Shown here one piece after another: positions 13,125 through 21,468 of a DNA stretch of 64,000 bases. This DNA comes from Alistipes sp. (GTDB lineage: Bacteria; Bacteroidota; Bacteroidia; Bacteroidales; Rikenellaceae). How positions within the stretch are numbered: the stretch's first letter is position 1; each line of letters starts with the position of its first letter. A program made the position numbers and the translations under genes. The notes beneath the pieces were generated by a model that did no database searches, had not been told where the DNA came from, and saw only the letters and a list, made by a program, of their open reading frames with translations. The stretch spans positions 41,663 to 105,662 of the forward strand of contig JAGBVG010000048.1 of NCBI GenBank assembly GCA_017630455.1, written 5' to 3'.

Positions 13125-14015
13125 ATGATACAGGATAAGATTAAGGGCGTGGGTGTTGCGCTCATAACCCCTTTCAACAACTTCGAGGTGGACTACGAGG
13201 CTTTGGCACGTATGGTGGACCACATCATTGAGGGTGGTGTGGATTATATCGTTGCCTTGGGCTCTACGGCCGAGACCGCAACGCTATCGCTCAAGGAGCG
13301 TCAGGAGGTCCTCGACTTTATCGTAGAGCGCACCGCAGAGCGTGTGCCAATAGTGGCAGGTATGGGAAGTAACAACACTGCAGACCTCGTGGCACAGCTA
13401 CGCTCGTTCGACCTATCGAAGTGTGTGGCGATACTCAGCGTTGTGCCATACTACAACAAACCTTCGCAGGAGGGCATCTACCGCCACTATATGGCTGTTG
13501 CCGAGGCATCACCTGTGCCAGTCATCGTCTACAACGTACCTGGTCGCACGGGAGTGAATATGAGTGCTGAGACTACCCTGCGTCTGGCGCACGCGACGGA
13601 TAAGATTGTGGCTGTGAAGGAGGCATCGGGCGACATAGAGCAGATGCAGCGAATCATAGACGGCAAGCCTGAGAACTTCTTGGTTATCTCGGGCGATGAC
13701 GGCATCACAGTGGAGTTGGTAAAGCGTGGCGGTGTGGGTGTCATCTCTGTAGCTGCGAATGCCTTTCCAGAGAGCTTCTGCAGCTGCATCCACAAGGCTA
13801 TGGATGGCGATATCGAGAGTGCAGAGAGGCAGATGGCGGAGCAGTTCACAGAGCCATTAAACCTCATCTTCCGCGAGGGAAACCCAACAAGTATCAAGGT
13901 GATGACCGAGACGATGGGTCTCACACGTCGCGAGGTACGTCTGCCACTGGTGGAGGGAACAGAGCAGCTCGCCACCGACATAAAGGCTGCCGTTGCGAAA
14001 TACGATTTGAAGTAG
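13125..14015 (+). CDS. dapA: 4-hydroxy-tetrahydrodipicolinate synthase DapA
   Basis: 296 residues, a TIM-barrel of the expected length. It condenses pyruvate with aspartate semialdehyde at the entry to lysine and diaminopimelate synthesis. The Schiff-base lysine is Lys165 (AVKEASGD) and the catalytic tyrosine is Tyr136 in VYNVPGRTG. The substrate loop reads LGSTAETATLS, where many homologues have GTTGE; Ser replaces the first Thr conservatively. It sits in a ligA-dapA-DUF4919 run with short spacers. Confidence 0.96.
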   Translation: MIQDKIKGVGVALITPFNNFEVDYEALARMVDHIIEGGVDYIVALGSTAETATLSLKERQEVLDFIVERTAERVPIVAGMGSNNTADLVAQLRSFDLSKCVAILSVVPYYNKPSQEGIYRHYMAVAEASPVPVIVYNVPGRTGVNMSAETTLRLAHATDKIVAVKEASGDIEQMQRIIDGKPENFLVISGDDGITVELVKRGGVGVISVAANAFPESFCSCIHKAMDGDIESAERQMAEQFTEPLNLIFREGNPTSIKVMTETMGLTRREVRLPLVEGTEQLATDIKAAVAKYDLK

Positions 14016-14045
14016 AGAGTGCGTTTATAGGGCAAAACCTACATT

Positions 14046-14804
14046 ATGAAGCAGATAAAGAGATTGATTTTAACCCTTGTGGTAGCGGTGATGAGTACAA
14101 CCTCGATCTCGGCACAAGAGGTCGAGAAGATGGTGCCAAACGAGGATGACATCCTCGCCAAGACTCTCAGCACCGCATCGCCCTACTACTATACAAACCT
14201 GATGCTGAAGTATCGCCTTGGCAACGAAGCTCTTACAGCTACGGAGTATTACTACCTATATTACGGCTTTCTCTACCAGGAGGATTATCGACCCTTTACG
14301 GAGAATAGAGCCCTCGACGAGATGTTGGGCATTATGGCGGGTATAAACCCCGAGCAGCCCACCGTGGGACAGCTCGAAGCACTCATAGAGCGCGGCCTCG
14401 AGGCTATGGAGCTCGATCCATTTAATCCCAAGATGCTCAATATGTTGGCATACGCCTACGGAGCGTTGGACGACCCCTACCGCGAGAAGCTATATTTCAA
14501 CCACCTCAATGGCATCCTCGGGGCTATCGAGATGTCGGGAACGGGGCTCAAGGAGGATGATGCGTGGCACATACTGATGTTCTCGCACGCCTACGATATG
14601 GTGGCATCGAAGGGCTATACCTACAACGAGGCGCGTATCATAAGCCGCACCACAGAGTTTGTGCCACTTATGCGCAAGCAGAATGGCATCAAGGGCTTCT
14701 ACTTCGACTATAGCCGCGTCTACCGCAACAAACCCGACGACGTAACGATAAAGCGCGACCGCACCTGGCAGATCAATGGTCTGCAACCGCAGGAGTATAA
14801 GTAG
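14046..14804 (+). CDS. DUF4919 exported protein
   Basis: 252 residues with a Sec signal peptide ending at about residue 23 (ISAQ). The mature part is helical, with blocks YYYTNLMLKYRLGNEALT and YYYLYYGFLYQEDY that characterise DUF4919, and TPR-like spacing in the middle (LELDPFNPKMLNMLAYAYG-type helices). The family is Bacteroidetes-specific with unknown function, and the location is probably periplasmic. It starts 30 bases after dapA with no promoter in between, so it likely shares that transcript. Confidence 0.8.
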   Translation: MKQIKRLILTLVVAVMSTTSISAQEVEKMVPNEDDILAKTLSTASPYYYTNLMLKYRLGNEALTATEYYYLYYGFLYQEDYRPFTENRALDEMLGIMAGINPEQPTVGQLEALIERGLEAMELDPFNPKMLNMLAYAYGALDDPYREKLYFNHLNGILGAIEMSGTGLKEDDAWHILMFSHAYDMVASKGYTYNEARIISRTTEFVPLMRKQNGIKGFYFDYSRVYRNKPDDVTIKRDRTWQINGLQPQEYK

Positions 14805-14814
14805 CGAGGAGACC

Positions 14815-14845
14815 TTGGCAAATTGCAAGATTTTGCCTATCTTTG
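14815..14845 (+). promoter_or_regulatory. Promoter for the clostripain-family lipoprotein
   Basis: TTG (14815-14817), 20 bases, TATCTTTG (14838-14845). Perfect consensus; it fixes the start codon downstream at 14871. Confidence 0.88.
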
Positions 14846-14870
14846 CCGAATGTTTCACAAAAATCACACG

Positions 14871-16394
14871 ATGAAGAACTTACGTAGATTATTCACCGCC
14901 ATAGTATGGATCGCGGCATCCATAGCTCTCACAGGCTGTACGGTAAAGAGCATTACGCTATATGCCATAAACGTTGACGCGGAGTTTGCCTGTCTGAATA
15001 TGGCATACAACGAGTTGGTGATAACATACGCCGTAAACGAGGAGGCGATAACCGAAGGTACCAAGTTCTCGGCTCAGGCCAGCGAGGAGTGGGTAACAAT
15101 AGTCGACACATCGGAGGTGGGTAAGATTGTGCTTAGCGTGGAGGAGAACAACGGCGATAACCGCACCGCGCAGATCACCATTTCGGCTCCGGGGTGTATA
15201 ACGACACACACCACACTACTTCAGTATGGCACACCGCCCGAGAAGGCAAACCACACGTTGATGTACTACTTCTTTGGCACGAGCCTCGGTGGATTCTTCA
15301 AGACCAACCTCTCGGATGCTGCAACAGCCATCGAGACAGGTATCTTGGGTAATAGCAACCGTGTGGTATTCTTCCGTCAGGAGGGCCAGTACAGCGGCTA
15401 CATCGGAGAGTTGAAGTATGACGTAACAAAGAGAGAGTGTAATGAGTTCCGTATCAAGGATATAACCCTAACGGTCAACACCATAACACCTAATAGCATA
15501 GGGGAGATTATGGCCGAGATGGCCGAGGTAGCTCCTGCAGAGCGCTACGGCATTGTCTTCGCGGGACACGGCCAGGGATGGATACTTCGCGAGATTCTCG
15601 CAAGCGATAGCGACATTTCGGCTGCGGGATCAGCTGCGGCATTCAACCTTGGATACACCCCCTTCGTACCTGCTCCAGGCGCAGAGGTGACACGTGCCTT
15701 TGGCGAGAAGAATGTGCAGGTGAACATCCCTGAGTTGGCAGAGGGTATTGAACATTCGGGCGTAGAGCTCGACTATATACTCTTCGACGCCTGCTTTATG
15801 TCGAACATCGAGGCGATATACGACCTACGCAACTCGGCAAACTACATCATAGCCTCGCCTTGCGAGATTATGGGTAAGGGATTCCCATACAACCGCACAC
15901 TCCCCCACCTCTTTAAGGATGAGGGTAGGACAACGGATTATGTAGGTGCCGCCGAGAGCTATCATATCTACTATCGCGACGAGTATATCGGAAACTCGCG
16001 TTGCGGCTCTATTGCCGTCTATGACTGCTCAGAGATTGAGAGTCTCGCCGAGGCAACAAAGGATGTGATGAAGAGCGCAAAGAGTGAATATAATGCCAAG
16101 GAGCTGCAGACGTATGAAGGTGAGAACCCTCACCATTTCTACGACTTCGGAGAGTGGGTAAGGGTTGTGGCAACGGACAATGCCGCACTGCAGAGTTTCA
16201 ATGAGGCTATGGCAGAGTGTGTTATCGCGAAGTACTCACTCGCGTCGTTCTACTCGGCATACGGCACGTATGGCACATATCCTATCGACCTCGATGTATA
16301 CTCTGGCGTCACCACATCTGCACCATCAAAGGCATATCCTAATGGCTGGAGAGCGACAAATTGGTATAAAGAGGTAATGGAGTTGGAAAATTAA
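14871..16394 (+). CDS. Clostripain-family (C11) cysteine peptidase lipoprotein with BACON-like domain
   Basis: 507 residues. A signal peptide ends in lipobox Cys23 (ALTGC). Residues about 40-118 form a BACON-like beta domain (IVLSVEENNGDNRTAQITIS), often used in Bacteroidetes for mucin or carbohydrate contact. The C11 peptidase domain then carries His233 (VFAGHGQGW) and Cys308 (ILFDACFMSN) in the expected order. Such enzymes cleave after Arg or Lys and are surface- or periplasm-exposed; the substrate here is not known. Alternative upstream starts fall inside the promoter and are rejected. Confidence 0.88.
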   Translation: MKNLRRLFTAIVWIAASIALTGCTVKSITLYAINVDAEFACLNMAYNELVITYAVNEEAITEGTKFSAQASEEWVTIVDTSEVGKIVLSVEENNGDNRTAQITISAPGCITTHTTLLQYGTPPEKANHTLMYYFFGTSLGGFFKTNLSDAATAIETGILGNSNRVVFFRQEGQYSGYIGELKYDVTKRECNEFRIKDITLTVNTITPNSIGEIMAEMAEVAPAERYGIVFAGHGQGWILREILASDSDISAAGSAAAFNLGYTPFVPAPGAEVTRAFGEKNVQVNIPELAEGIEHSGVELDYILFDACFMSNIEAIYDLRNSANYIIASPCEIMGKGFPYNRTLPHLFKDEGRTTDYVGAAESYHIYYRDEYIGNSRCGSIAVYDCSEIESLAEATKDVMKSAKSEYNAKELQTYEGENPHHFYDFGEWVRVVATDNAALQSFNEAMAECVIAKYSLASFYSAYGTYGTYPIDLDVYSGVTTSAPSKAYPNGWRATNWYKEVMELEN

Positions 16395-16413
16395 GATATA
16401 TTCTATATCTTTG
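16383..16413 (+). promoter_or_regulatory. Promoter for ffh
   Basis: TTG (16383-16385), 20 bases, TATCTTTG (16406-16413). Perfect consensus; its -33 box lies within the 3' end of the upstream peptidase gene. Confidence 0.85.
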
Positions 16414-16450
16414 CACACCTTAACAAAGAAATAATTAAAGATGATATACT

Positions 16451-17791
16451 ATGTTTGAAAATCTAACCGAGAAACTTGAACGCTCGTTTAAAATCCTCAA
16501 GGGCGAGGGTCGCATTACGGAGATTAACGTTGCCGAGACTCTCAAGGAGATACGTCGCGCACTTATCGATGCCGATGTTAGTTACAAGGTTGCAAAATCA
16601 TTCACCGACGAGGTAAAGCGTAAGGCTCTCGGTCAGGATGTGCTCACAGCTGTGAAGCCTGGTCAGATGATGACCAAGATCGTGCGCGATGAGTTGGCAC
16701 AGCTTATGGGTGGCACAGCTACGGATGTAAACCTCGAGGGTAACCCTGCCGTGGTGCTTATCGCAGGTCTCCAGGGTTCGGGTAAGACAACCTTCTCGGG
16801 TAAGTTTGCGTCGTTGCTCAAGACCAAGAAAAACCGCAAGGTGCTGCTCGTGGCTTGTGACGTTTACCGCCCTGCAGCTATCGACCAGCTCAAGATTTTG
16901 GGCGATACCGTGGGTGTGGAGGTATACACCGAGCCAGACAACAACAACCCAGTGGAGATTGCCAAGAACTCTATCGACTACGCTCGTCAGAAGGGCTACA
17001 ACACCGTGATTGTCGATACCGCGGGTCGCTTGGCTGTTGACGAGGCTATGATGGTGGAGATCACAAACATCAAGGCTGCCATCAACCCATCGGAGACACT
17101 CTTCGTGGTGGACTCTATGACAGGTCAGGATGCTGTGAACACCGCTAAGGAGTTTAACGACCGTCTCGACTTCGACGGCGTGGTACTCACAAAGCTCGAT
17201 GGTGACACTCGTGGTGGTGCTGCGATCTCTATCCGCTCGGTAGTCGACAAGCCTTTGAAGTTTATCTCTTCGGGCGAGAAGATGGATGCACTGCAGGTCT
17301 TCCACCCAGAGCGTATGGCAGACCGTATCCTCGGTATGGGTGATGTGGTGTCGCTTGTGGAGCGTGCACAGGAGCAGTTCGACGAGGAGCAGGCACGTAA
17401 GCTTAAGAAGAAGCTCATCAAGGATCAGTTCGACTTCAACGATTTCCGCGAGCAGATTGCACAGATCAAGAAGATGGGTAACCTCAAGGACCTCGCATCG
17501 ATGATTCCAGGTGTTGGCAAGGCTTTGAAGGATGTGGATATTCCAGATGACGCATTCAAGCAGACCGAGGCCATCATCGACTCTATGACTCCTGAGGAGC
17601 GCGAGAAGCCTGAGATCATCAACTCACGCCGCAGAGAGCGCATAGCACGCGGCTCGGGAACAACGGTTGCGGATGTAAATCGTCTCTTGAAGCAGTTTGA
17701 GCAGACTCGCAAGATGATGAAGACCGTAGCCGGAGGAGGACTCCAGCAACAGATGAGACAGATGAGACGTGGCGGACATCGCCGCAGATAA
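16451..17791 (+). CDS. ffh: Signal recognition particle GTPase Ffh (SRP54)
   Basis: 446 residues. The N domain is followed by the G domain with GLQGSGKTTFSGK, DTAGRL and TKLDGD. The Met-rich M domain at the C-terminus (RKMMKTVAGGGLQQQMRQMR) binds the SRP RNA. Ffh captures signal sequences at the ribosome and docks with FtsY. The RNA partner ffs is about 20 kb away at 37141-37237. It is monocistronic, with a clear promoter and terminator. Confidence 0.98.
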   Translation: MFENLTEKLERSFKILKGEGRITEINVAETLKEIRRALIDADVSYKVAKSFTDEVKRKALGQDVLTAVKPGQMMTKIVRDELAQLMGGTATDVNLEGNPAVVLIAGLQGSGKTTFSGKFASLLKTKKNRKVLLVACDVYRPAAIDQLKILGDTVGVEVYTEPDNNNPVEIAKNSIDYARQKGYNTVIVDTAGRLAVDEAMMVEITNIKAAINPSETLFVVDSMTGQDAVNTAKEFNDRLDFDGVVLTKLDGDTRGGAAISIRSVVDKPLKFISSGEKMDALQVFHPERMADRILGMGDVVSLVERAQEQFDEEQARKLKKKLIKDQFDFNDFREQIAQIKKMGNLKDLASMIPGVGKALKDVDIPDDAFKQTEAIIDSMTPEEREKPEIINSRRRERIARGSGTTVADVNRLLKQFEQTRKMMKTVAGGGLQQQMRQMRRGGHRRR

Positions 17792-17797
17792 TAAGAT

Positions 17798-17833
17798 GGG
17801 CGTGTCCAATAAATTTTCGGACACGTCCTTTTT
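17798..17833 (+). terminator. Terminator of ffh
   Basis: GGGCGTGTCC (17798-17807) pairs with GGACACGTCC (17819-17828, one G-T pair), followed by a T run. It lies seven bases after the stop. Confidence 0.88.
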
Positions 17834-17857
17834 GTTTGATGGTTTCTTATTCCTATT

Positions 17858-18403
17858 ATGACCGACTTAGAGATCCGAGATGCACTCATACGCGGTGACG
17901 AGGAGGTGACACGCAACTTTTTCTACAGAACCTGTCGTCCTCTCCTTATCAGCGTGATACGCCGTGTGTTCAACTATACGGTCGACTACGACGAGTGCAT
18001 CAATGAGCTATACCTGCACTTAATGGAGGATGATGGGCGGCGACTACGTCAGTTTGCCGGGCGAAGCACCATATACCAGTGGATAAAGATTGTGGCGACA
18101 CGATTTTTCATAAATCGGCGCGGCGCAGTGATAGATATCAACTCTTCGAACCCTCTTATGGAGAGAGTGGGTATGACTCGAGGAGCATCGCCAGAGGCGC
18201 AGAACGACGCACGAATGGATGTGGAGAGCCTCTTTGGAAGTATGAAAAACGAACGCTATGCCACGGTACTGAGGCGTCTGATAATGGACGACGCAGCACC
18301 AGAGGATGTGGCACAAGAGATGGGTATAAAGGTGGACAACCTCTACAACATCAAGAAACGAGCTATAGCTGCGCTTATGCGCATAGCAATTGGGAAAGAG
18401 TAA
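17858..18403 (+). CDS. ECF-type RNA polymerase sigma factor
   Basis: 181 residues. Region 2 covers about 20-95 (YRTCRPLLISVIRRVFNY, DECINELYLHLM, STIYQWIKIVATRFF). Region 4 covers about 130-178, with a helix-turn-helix in APEDVAQEMGIKVDNLYNIK. No extra C-terminal domain is present. The next gene starts 22 bases on and the third 23 bases after that, so the sigma factor heads a compact cluster. It may direct expression of that cluster or of unlinked genes. No membrane anti-sigma gene (FecR type) and no SusC-like receptor is adjacent, so it is not a standard SusCD-linked ECF unit. Confidence 0.85.
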   Translation: MTDLEIRDALIRGDEEVTRNFFYRTCRPLLISVIRRVFNYTVDYDECINELYLHLMEDDGRRLRQFAGRSTIYQWIKIVATRFFINRRGAVIDINSSNPLMERVGMTRGASPEAQNDARMDVESLFGSMKNERYATVLRRLIMDDAAPEDVAQEMGIKVDNLYNIKKRAIAALMRIAIGKE

Positions 18404-18425
18404 TGCCTATTATAATATATAAGGT

Positions 18426-19121
18426 ATGAGAGATGATATTATCATAAACGGCATAACCGATGATATGGTAGCTGCGCTTATGGATGGCACAGCGACGGCC
18501 GAGGAGATCAGGATGATACTTGCCGCACTACCCCACTGCAAAGAGTTGCAGGAGATCATAACTGTGGCAATAGGCGTCGACCGCGACCTTGCCCTCGGCT
18601 TTGATGTTGAGGATATGCTGCTAAAGAGGGCATACGCAGCATCGAGCAAGCGCGGAAACCTCTGCTGCTGGGAGTGTGAGAAGCATATTCTCGACAAGCA
18701 CCATATCGCCTACGACGAGGCGGAGATGCTGAGCGTGGCGGAGAAGAATATGTGGATATGCGACAAGGGTACGGCGCTAAATAATATAGGCCGCTCAGCG
18801 GAGAGTTTAGGTATGAGCATCGAGCAGCGATTTATGGGCAGCTTAGAGGATCTCTGCCAAGCCTTGGAGAGTAAGAGGGATGTCATCGTGGCGGTGGATG
18901 GTGGCGAGTTGCTGGGTGACAGATGGATGGAGATGATGGAGGATATCTTCGATGGTGAGAAGCCTGACCATACGGTGGTGGTGCTTGGCTACGACAAGGA
19001 GCTTAACACCGTGACGGTCTACGACCCCAACAGCGACAACGACACCGACAGCTACCCTATCGAGCAGTTTATGGATGCGTGGAACGACTCCAACAACTAC
19101 TTCGTAACAGTGTGTAAATAA
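18426..19121 (+). CDS. C39-like papain-fold protein, putative cysteine protease
   Basis: 231 residues without a signal peptide. Residues 1-65 are a helical, acidic N-terminal segment (ITDDMVAALMDGTATAEEI) that resembles short anti-sigma-like tails. Residues about 75-230 have the layout of a C39-like papain fold: Cys80/81/84 in GNLCCWECEKHIL, His182 in DHTVVVLGYD and Asp200 in VTVYDPNSDN. It is cytoplasmic by prediction. The conserved Cys-His-Asp order suggests a peptidase, but the usual QxxCG motif is absent, so it could be inactive. Its place right after an ECF sigma factor suggests control or processing of that factor, which is inference. Confidence 0.65.
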   Translation: MRDDIIINGITDDMVAALMDGTATAEEIRMILAALPHCKELQEIITVAIGVDRDLALGFDVEDMLLKRAYAASSKRGNLCCWECEKHILDKHHIAYDEAEMLSVAEKNMWICDKGTALNNIGRSAESLGMSIEQRFMGSLEDLCQALESKRDVIVAVDGGELLGDRWMEMMEDIFDGEKPDHTVVVLGYDKELNTVTVYDPNSDNDTDSYPIEQFMDAWNDSNNYFVTVCK

Positions 19122-19144
19122 TCAGCTTAGAAACCCAATTTATT

Positions 19145-19450
19145 ATGAGTGAGAAGAATAACGGATATATCCCAAGTCCGAAAGATGTCAGCGACATCGT
19201 ACTTGATAGCTCGGTTATGGAGCTTGTGGAGGTTATGGCGAAGAATGTTCACGAAGTGTGGGCAGAGTCGCGCATCCGCGAGGGGTGGCGCTATGGCGTA
19301 ACACGCAACGAAGAGCGTAAGGAGCACCCCTGTCTCATCCCCTACGAGGAGCTACCAGAGAGCGAGCGTGACTACGACCGCAACACCGCCATCGGCACCC
19401 TGAAGCTTATTCACAAGCTCGGCTTTAAGATCGAAAAGCGCGAGCCATAG
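19145..19450 (+). CDS. RyR domain protein
   Basis: 101 residues, essentially one RyR domain. The signature blocks are NVHEVWAESRIREGW, YGVTRNEERKEHPCL, and IPYEELPESERDYDRNTA followed by LKLIHKLGF. The RyR repeat was named from ryanodine receptors; in bacteria it occurs alone or in signalling proteins and is suspected to bind small ligands. It is the last gene of the sigma/C39-like/RyR cluster and is closed by a terminator. Confidence 0.88.
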   Translation: MSEKNNGYIPSPKDVSDIVLDSSVMELVEVMAKNVHEVWAESRIREGWRYGVTRNEERKEHPCLIPYEELPESERDYDRNTAIGTLKLIHKLGFKIEKREP

Positions 19451-19473: not shown

Positions 19474-19507
19474 AAAAATTGCGAGACCGATCTCGCAATT
19501 TTTTTTT
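19474..19507. terminator. Bidirectional terminator between RyR gene and WYL regulator
   Basis: AAATTGCGAGA (19476-19486), loop CCGA, TCTCGCAATTT (19491-19501), flanked by A and T runs. It overlaps the stop codon of the regulator by two bases. Confidence 0.92.
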
Positions 19508-20738: not shown

Positions 20739-20903
20739 CTAATCACGCAATAGTTCGTCGGGGGTAAGGCGCACTATCTCTCCGTCGCGCACAACCACCA
20801 AGTCGCCGTTATCCCTACGGGTGCGCTCTATGAGGCGACGCTGCGCCAAGAGGATACCTGCATCTATACGTTCTTGAAGCTCTCGAATCTCAAACTCACT
20901 CAT
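20739..20903 (-). CDS. Small putative antitoxin-like partner of zeta-type kinase
   Basis: 54 residues: an N-terminal helix (FEIRELQERIDAGILLAQRR) and then a short beta element (GDLVVVRDGEIVRLTPDELL). The start overlaps the end of the zeta-like kinase gene by eight bases, so the two are tightly coupled. I recall similar short proteins next to zeta-type kinases in other bacteria, which supports a toxin-partner reading, but no function is established from the sequence alone. It has no resemblance to the classical epsilon antitoxin. Confidence 0.7.
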   Translation of the reverse strand: MSEFEIRELQERIDAGILLAQRRLIERTRRDNGDLVVVRDGEIVRLTPDELLRD

Positions 20904-21468
20904 AACTCAATATTTTCTGATAAGCTAACGCATCAACGACCTCTTTTATTTCGCCCTTTGAGCCATAGGCTATCTTCTTTACACCCTCAGCGGTGGAGTT
21001 ATCGTATATTACCCAGTAGTCGCAAATAGGAACATAGAGCTTCGTAAGATTGCGCATACTGCTCTCGTAGCGACGACGGATGGTGTTAGTCGGGATGTTG
21101 TGTCCTCCCAGACTCACACGCTTTGCAACACGCTGTATAGCTTGCTCGGGGGTGGGCAACCAGAAATACAATAGCGACACGAAGTAGCCCTTCTCGTGGG
21201 CGCGCTCGATGAATTTCTGGTATGTACGTGTGGAAAGTGTGGTCTCGAATGCAAAGTCAGAACCCTCCTCTAACAGGTCGTTTATGCGGCGCAACATCAG
21301 ACGTCCCGCCTCGATAGCCATACTATCGGGATTAAACGGCGAGAGGCCGCGCGCAATTTCATCCGCGTTGACAAATTCGTGGCAGTGCAACAACTCGGGC
21401 AACATAGTGTAGGATGCCGTTGTCTTGCCTGCGCCATTACAGCCTGCTATGATATAGAGTTTCTGCAT
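20896..21468 (-). CDS. Zeta-toxin family P-loop kinase
   Basis: 190 residues. The P-loop is GCNGAGKT (9-16), the conserved acidic switch is EFVNADEIARGL, and DFAFETTLSTR matches the substrate-side glutamate segment of zeta/PezT proteins. The C-terminal lid has RRRYESSMRNL. Zeta toxins phosphorylate UDP-GlcNAc sugars; other branches act on different small molecules. The gene has a consensus promoter and is translationally coupled to a 54-residue protein downstream. That order (kinase first) is the reverse of epsilon-zeta. It could instead be a metabolic kinase. Confidence 0.82.
   Translation of the reverse strand: MQKLYIIAGCNGAGKTTASYTMLPELLHCHEFVNADEIARGLSPFNPDSMAIEAGRLMLRRINDLLEEGSDFAFETTLSTRTYQKFIERAHEKGYFVSLLYFWLPTPEQAIQRVAKRVSLGGHNIPTNTIRRRYESSMRNLTKLYVPICDYWVIYDNSTAEGVKKIAYGSKGEIKEVVDALAYQKILSYE

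Follow-up and report, generated by a model that had tools for sequence, protein, structure and literature searches.

A compact sigma factor, C39 and RyR gene unit in Alistipes, a proposed transcriptional arm of RyR-based nucleotide signalling

Organization of the locus

We have analysed a stretch of 64,000 nucleotides (nt) from Alistipes sp. (assembly GCA_017630455.1, contig JAGBVG010000048.1, positions 41,663 to 105,662), hereafter the window, and in it a unit of three genes. These encode an extracytoplasmic function (ECF) sigma factor (181 aa, 17858..18403), a C39-like protein (231 aa, 18426..19121) and a stand-alone RyR (R12) domain protein (101 aa, 19145..19450). All three open reading frames are on the + strand, with gaps of 22 and 23 nt, which bore out the compact unit, coordinates and gaps included, that a preliminary description of this DNA had reported. 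The sigma-C39 pair recurs as adjacent genes in 21 of 22 related loci, so that the neighbourhood seen in the window also holds in relatives. Comparison with the locus of another Alistipes metagenome-assembled genome (MAG; locus L013) gave dN/dS ratios of 0.11 (sigma), 0.08 (C39) and 0.10 (RyR), at dS values of 1.7-2.4 that are near saturation. The recurring pair and the low dN/dS indicate that the unit is more than a chance arrangement. In our view this regulatory unit is genuine and out of the ordinary, and the reading that suits it best is that of a transcriptional arm in RyR-based nucleotide signalling.

The unit had been placed between two terminators, and hairpins were found at both ends. 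The upstream border, 3′ of ffh, is a terminator-like hairpin seen by eye (17798..17834, +; 10-bp stem, 11-nt loop, T tract), which fell outside our terminator scan with its loop limit of 8. The downstream one (19474..19503, +) came from that scan, which found 1 site where 1.5 were expected by chance. A Pfam scan of eight proteins, the three of the unit and five neighbours, returned neither FecR nor SusC/D among these neighbours, in line with the claimed absence of such partners, and, ffh apart, no GTPase or HSP70 gene. One neighbour, encoded some 1.4 kb beyond RyR, is a zeta-toxin-like P-loop protein (20896-21468, -, Pfam E 6e-12); L032 has a protein whose N-terminus is nearly identical (16262-16831, +), about 5 kb past C39 there. 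The host genome is a Bacteroidales MAG of 2.0 Mb, 90% complete and with 7.15% contamination.

The sigma factor and its C39-like partner

The first gene had been called an ECF sigma factor. Its product matched TIGR02937 over residues 19-173 (E 9e-11; 41.6 bits, 1.3 bits under the cut-off of 42.9) and Sigma70_r2 with 23.9 bits (cut-off 24), and it aligned with 12 relatives. Both scores are just under the cut-offs, and we treat the product as a probable ECF-type sigma factor. A sigma of the same family was present on the C39 strand in 22/22 loci, and in 21 of these its upstream distance was between -47 and +29 nt; the profile used came from 13 sigmas, of which 12 are relatives within the C39 loci, and hence measures likeness. 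In a mirror test with 21 loci (L045 dropped), the sigma distances correlated with those of the C39 N-terminus (0.88) and of its catalytic part (0.83), correlations that shared descent alone could give. By eye, boxes resembling TAnnTTTG, the housekeeping -7 box of Bacteroidetes, occur in about 8 of the 17 upstream stretches of cluster starts (clusters L028, L029, L031, L032, L033, L035, L038 and L040). The clusters may be expressed without their own sigma.

The middle protein matched Peptidase_C39_2 with 28.3 bits (cut-off 24), and the C39 profile was found in 19/22 relatives at E up to 1. Its structural model had a mean pLDDT of 74.7; the catalytic part includes several blocks that exceed 90, and values in the N-terminal part are mostly 40-70. 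Fold comparison of model residues 74-231 recovered a papain fold, as had been anticipated for the predicted papain-like domain (residues ~74-231). The preliminary description had singled out Cys80/81/84, His182 and Asp200. Cys80 (codon 18663..18665, +), the catalytic candidate at the start of modelled helix 79-91, and His182 (18969..18971, +), at the start of modelled strand 182-190, were conserved in 22/22 members, and position 200 (19023..19025, +) was Asp in 19/22 and Asn in 3/22. Positions 81 and 84 were variable across the 22 members, which removes Cys81 and Cys84 from the set. The family therefore has a Cys-His-Asp/Asn triad, the order of which along the helix and strands fits the model.

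The N-terminal helical domain (residues ~1-60) is perhaps of anti-sigma type, as had been proposed: zf-HC2 matches were obtained for 5/22 members (best E 0.005), whereas the window protein gave none at E up to 1. The papain-like C39 protein probably holds the sigma factor. Its protease-like fold with a complete triad would also suit an effector that, once activated, cuts host or phage proteins, with the sigma factor merely turning the genes on. A further peptidase (M48, with a zinc ribbon) stands in 9/22 loci, after a weak match in L045 was dropped, and in the window's own genome no M48 match was obtained at E up to 0.001 in a search that had no positive control. The very close coupling to the sigma factor and the N-terminal domain, weakly like an anti-sigma zinc finger, argue against this effector role, which we deem quite improbable.

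The RyR protein and its candidate ligand site

The third gene does encode a lone RyR domain, as first described (PF02026, E 2e-32, 111.7 bits against a cut-off of 27.4), and it is the sole RyR match in its genome at E up to 0.001. The phage protein RyDEP is reported to cleave 2′/3′ cyclic ADP-ribose (cADPR) with H75 and D117, while W78 contacts the adenine and H100 the phosphates (PMC13232231, a 2026 preprint, in the part available to us). His36, Trp39, His61 and Asp78 of the window protein (codons within 19250..19378, +) correspond to RyDEP H75, W78, H100 and D117 by their spacing (+3, +25, +42), a match made from the spacing and not from the RyDEP sequence itself. All four residues were kept in 21/22 stand-alone RyR proteins, and the first His, the Trp and the Asp in 14/14 C39-fused ones. 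In the animal RyR3, the R12 repeat binds ATP, ADP and AMP-PCP; for ADP and AMP-PCP the adenine is contacted by Trp880, the phosphates by Lys884 and Arg895 (PMC12627627). W39, R43 and R54 of the window protein stand opposite these three residues in an alignment counted by hand.

From these sequence correspondences, the window RyR likely binds an adenine nucleotide, and it is plausible that this nucleotide is the product of a TIR protein; TIR-like NADases are treated in the accessible part of a further preprint (PMC13174449). The conserved adenine-nucleotide residues and the literature thus make the small-molecule circuit suggested in the preliminary description plausible.

Gene company of the C39 relatives

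Neighbour families at the 22 C39 loci were defined by BLAST clustering, and counts were made with profiles derived from proteins of these same loci (L014 and L029, being one contig, were counted once, and L074 repeats part of L040). RyR was fused to C39 in 14/22 loci. A separate RyR gene followed C39 in six (the window, L030, L031, L033, L034 and L035), the last five having both a fused and a stand-alone RyR, and the window was the only locus of the 22 with a separate RyR and none fused. In a FastTree tree, the RyR domains of the window and L013 grouped together (support 0.996) inside the stand-alone clade (0.93), separate from the remaining 13 RyR that are fused to C39. The tie between RyR and the C39 protein thus holds, with two independent fusions by the tree.

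Channel-like genes were found 5′ of sigma in 8/22 loci, TIR in 7/22 and nSTAND in 4/22. "Channel-like" refers to hydrophobic segments together with weak Slo-like_RCK matches. The TIR proteins were fused to LRR, Sel1, hexapeptide or SIR2-like (below cut-off) partners, and a glutamate, presumably catalytic, was kept by eye in 9/9 aligned TIRs, two of them from the window genome. A D4062 profile (from L036 and L031) was excluded from the counts after Pfam left its DUF4062 identity unconfirmed at E 0.01, and a weak dynamin cross-match in L033 was likewise dropped. In L028, NusG-family and tyrosine-recombinase genes (13497-15185) head the cluster, which hints at mobility and antitermination.

The coexistence of fused and stand-alone RyR in five loci bears on a different role for the stand-alone protein, namely that of an off-switch that cleaves the signal like RyDEP or soaks it up like the phage sponges, the sensor being the C39 protein or the fused RyR. 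The residue pattern points the same way: stand-alone RyR proteins keep the RyDEP residues, catalytic pair included, in 21/22 cases, the phosphate-binding His being kept in only 4/14 fused ones. However, the window genome has no other RyR match to serve as sensor, and in L013 it is the stand-alone type that is fused to C39. Moreover, of eight further RyDEP homologs chosen in the preprint, six bound and none was seen to cleave (PMC13232231, in the part available). We therefore rate the off-switch as unlikely.

RyR loci elsewhere

Of 295 sampled Bacteroidales genomes, 25 had RyR, with 31 matches in all. After joining adjacent matches and excluding a broken fragment, three C39-fused matches and the window itself, we fetched 23 RyR regions of 6.5 to 17 kb. 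A same-strand TIR gene was found in 11/23 (L068 weak, E 5e-4) and a channel-like protein in 14/23 (L064 weak); one or both occurred in 19/23, the exceptions being L061, L063, L065 and L069. Seven channel-like proteins themselves matched the RyR profile (L059, L060, L067, L068, L070, L072 and L073). By comparison, 19 control regions of 16-17 kb at hand-chosen positions in 13 of the same genomes had no TIR and no channel-like gene; sigma and nSTAND each gave two weak matches there. The enrichment was significant for both families (Fisher p 3e-4 for TIR and 3e-5 for channel-like). A SLATT_1 membrane effector domain is encoded in L071 (5886-7727), adjoining RyR and TIR genes.

Among phage records, 279 of 50,697 had a RyR match at E up to 0.01, and the two top matches, among those listed, were unannotated "Bacteriophage sp." records. 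One of these (L095, MT836850.1) has a RyR beside a channel-like gene, with FecR-like and sigma-like genes by eye, and looks like a piece of a Bacteroidales chromosome. C39-RyR and RyR queries found no relative in viral contigs, and a class-wide sample (2/395 genomes matched) yielded, besides the window genome itself, a single fragment that has seven stops and was not counted. A plasmid search outside the phylum came to 15 of 72,556 records. In a Rhodococcus plasmid (L098), GTPase, HSP70, C39 and sigma genes lie on one strand within ~7 kb; an Anabaena plasmid (L097) has C39 with HSP70 and dynamin genes, and no sigma was found there. The C39-sigma pair thus seems to reach beyond Bacteroidota and beyond RyR.

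Origin of the window locus and the rest of its genome

Compared with the larger cluster of its relatives, the window locus is reduced: flanked by ffh and a WYL-type gene, just sigma, C39 and RyR are left, and in L013 this site has C39 and RyR fused. Read from the tree, the old fused RyR and the zinc ribbon would have been lost in the window lineage, with a second, independent fusion in Alistipes. The window locus has no channel-like, M48 or TIR gene, C39-fused RyR or zinc ribbon of the kind found in relatives, which might make it the decaying remnant of a defence cluster. Against this, two species have uninterrupted reading frames at this ffh/WYL-type site, with dN/dS of 0.08-0.11. Decay is already unlikely on these data, and we give it very little credence.

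Other contigs of the window genome carry two TIR genes, with products of 514 aa (by eye, with a membrane segment) and 631 aa (Sel1-like repeats, likewise by eye), as well as one channel-like gene (835 aa; L102, 8914-11421). The latter stands 3′ of ahpC- and ahpF-like genes, named by eye. The main steps of the route proposed below hence have candidates in the own genome; they are unlinked, and MAG contamination could mislead here.

An ordinary ECF sigma/anti-sigma pair that reads the energy state (ATP/ADP through RyR) or another stress, unrelated to immunity, would fit several of these data. The RyR3 R12 repeat binds ATP, ADP and AMP-PCP (PMC12627627, in the available part), the own channel-like gene follows the ahpC/ahpF-like genes, and no TIR or STAND type was found among the five scanned window neighbours, one of which is the zeta-toxin-like protein. 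What speaks against it is that relatives, and other RyR loci as well, have TIR and STAND-type genes as neighbours, and we consider such a pair unlikely.

A proposed nucleotide-gated sigma switch

A nucleotide-gated sigma switch is the explanation of the unit that we favour, with somewhat less than even confidence. The N-terminal helical domain of the C39 protein would hold the ECF sigma factor in the cytoplasm. RyR, separate here and part of the C39 chain in 14/22 relatives, would bind an adenine-diphosphate-ribose type molecule, for example a cADPR isomer made by a TIR NADase; we propose such a ligand because of the conserved residues, the phage RyR work and the gene company. Binding would change or trigger the papain-like domain, which would cleave or let go, and the sigma factor would be freed. 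An RCK channel-like protein may respond to the same signal. In the window species, the sigma-C39-RyR arm stands alone at one locus, the TIR and channel-like genes being located on other contigs. The immune-type and channel-like neighbours of the relatives suggest a signalling route in which a molecule derived from NAD would act on gene expression; of this scheme, we infer the anti-sigma action, the ligand, the gating, the proteolysis and the output genes. The preliminary interpretation, a circuit in which the C39-like protein would hold or cut the sigma factor, is partly supported, namely in the sigma-C39 neighbourhood, the papain fold, the tie to RyR and the plausibility of a small-molecule circuit, and weakly in the anti-sigma N-terminus. 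It had neither the link of RyR genes to TIR and channel-like proteins nor the window as a reduced cluster.

Several observations weigh against the switch. At the window, no TIR gene stands beside the unit; the two TIR genes of the genome are found on separate contigs, and the MAG has 7.15% contamination. For the anti-sigma N-terminus the basis is sub-threshold zf-HC2 matches, the two inspected being below cut-off, and no two-block promoter motif was shared by more than 4 of the 17 upstream stretches. In 7/22 loci (L016, L038, L041, L042, L043, L044 and L045) no RyR was fused to or beside C39 in the stretches fetched; a RyR lies ~13 kb further on in L041, within a run of + strand genes. In three of the seven (L042, L043, L045) dynamin-family genes take its place, joined in L043 by HSP70 and DO-GTPase, so the sigma-C39 pair also occurs without RyR. 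In turn, no C39 match was found in the 23 other RyR regions as fetched, C39-fused hits having been set aside beforehand, which means that the TIR-RyR company is mostly without this sigma arm.

The ligand and the channel arm meet further difficulties. The phosphate-binding His is Thr or Asn in 10/14 fused RyR. On a Priestia aryabhattai plasmid (L099, NZ_CP128553.1), a gene for an adenylate/guanylate cyclase is directly followed by RyR; a Pycsar-type effector is encoded upstream, and the opposite strand has a TIR gene. The ligand could accordingly be another nucleotide. Of six channel-like proteins compared with Slo-like_RCK, one scored over the cut-off (L015), three below it (L014, L033, L035) and two gave no match (L040, L056). 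We have also rejected the channel C-terminus as a RyR domain: key residues align, but the hhalign E of 0.1 is not significant.

A broader proposal, which we hold as tentative and rather doubtful, is a host-encoded RyR-type pathway of Bacteroidales. An ADP-ribose-type messenger from a TIR NADase would act through RyR on an RCK channel and, via a papain-like anti-sigma factor, on a dedicated sigma factor; stand-alone RyR proteins may in addition terminate the signal. On this view the RyR proteins of phages would be receptors that they have stolen, and the animal RyR repeat would owe its nucleotide site to descent from the pathway. The nucleotide-gated switch would offer a testable home for bacterial RyR domains and proposes a transcriptional arm, via a papain-like anti-sigma factor, for nucleotide-based immunity. 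It bears on which receptors besides the known Thoeris effectors take TIR-made cADPR signals, and on whether the R12 repeat of the animal ryanodine receptor itself receives cADPR-type molecules.

Comparison with known systems

The literature searched yielded no description of a sigma-C39-RyR system or of a host RyR beside TIR, and its novelty is provisional. In Thoeris, a TIR protein makes a cADPR isomer that gates an effector. Our relatives share the TIR proteins, here beside RyR genes; the differences are the proposed receptor, RyR, the outputs, sigma and a channel-like protein, and the lack of a TIR beside the window genes. Pairs of an ECF sigma factor and a cytoplasmic anti-sigma factor likewise have an adjacent small sigma and a helical N-terminus, and relatives weakly match zf-HC2, but here the N-terminus is fused to a papain-like domain, often with RyR and a zinc ribbon. 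The window RyR is the same domain as in Bacteroides thetaiotaomicron 3nrt and in animal RyR repeat 1-2. It is a single stand-alone repeat as in 3nrt, a solved structure for which the literature searched gave no function, and has no calcium channel body as in animal RyR.

Loci L042, L043 and L045 approach the DO-GTPase/HSP70 conflict systems (PMC7159879) through C39 with dynamin-family genes, and L043 also through HSP70 and DO-GTPase; no such genes were found among the five scanned window neighbours, ffh apart, and the main text of that paper, in the part at hand, has no sigma, C39 or RyR. EACC2-caspase systems with an ECF sigma (PMC8195603) likewise pair an ECF sigma with a protease-fold protein, in what is predicted to be an immune context. 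The fold is that of a caspase there and papain/C39 in the window, and RyR is absent from the available main text. The RyDEP preprint (PMC13232231), in which the B. thetaiotaomicron RyR protein appears, in the part available, only as a structural match, provides the closest parallel for the ligand site, with PF02026 and H/W/H/D at identical spacing in the window RyR. The phage proteins described there are anti-Thoeris enzymes or sponges, whereas the window RyR is chromosomal and stands by C39 and sigma.
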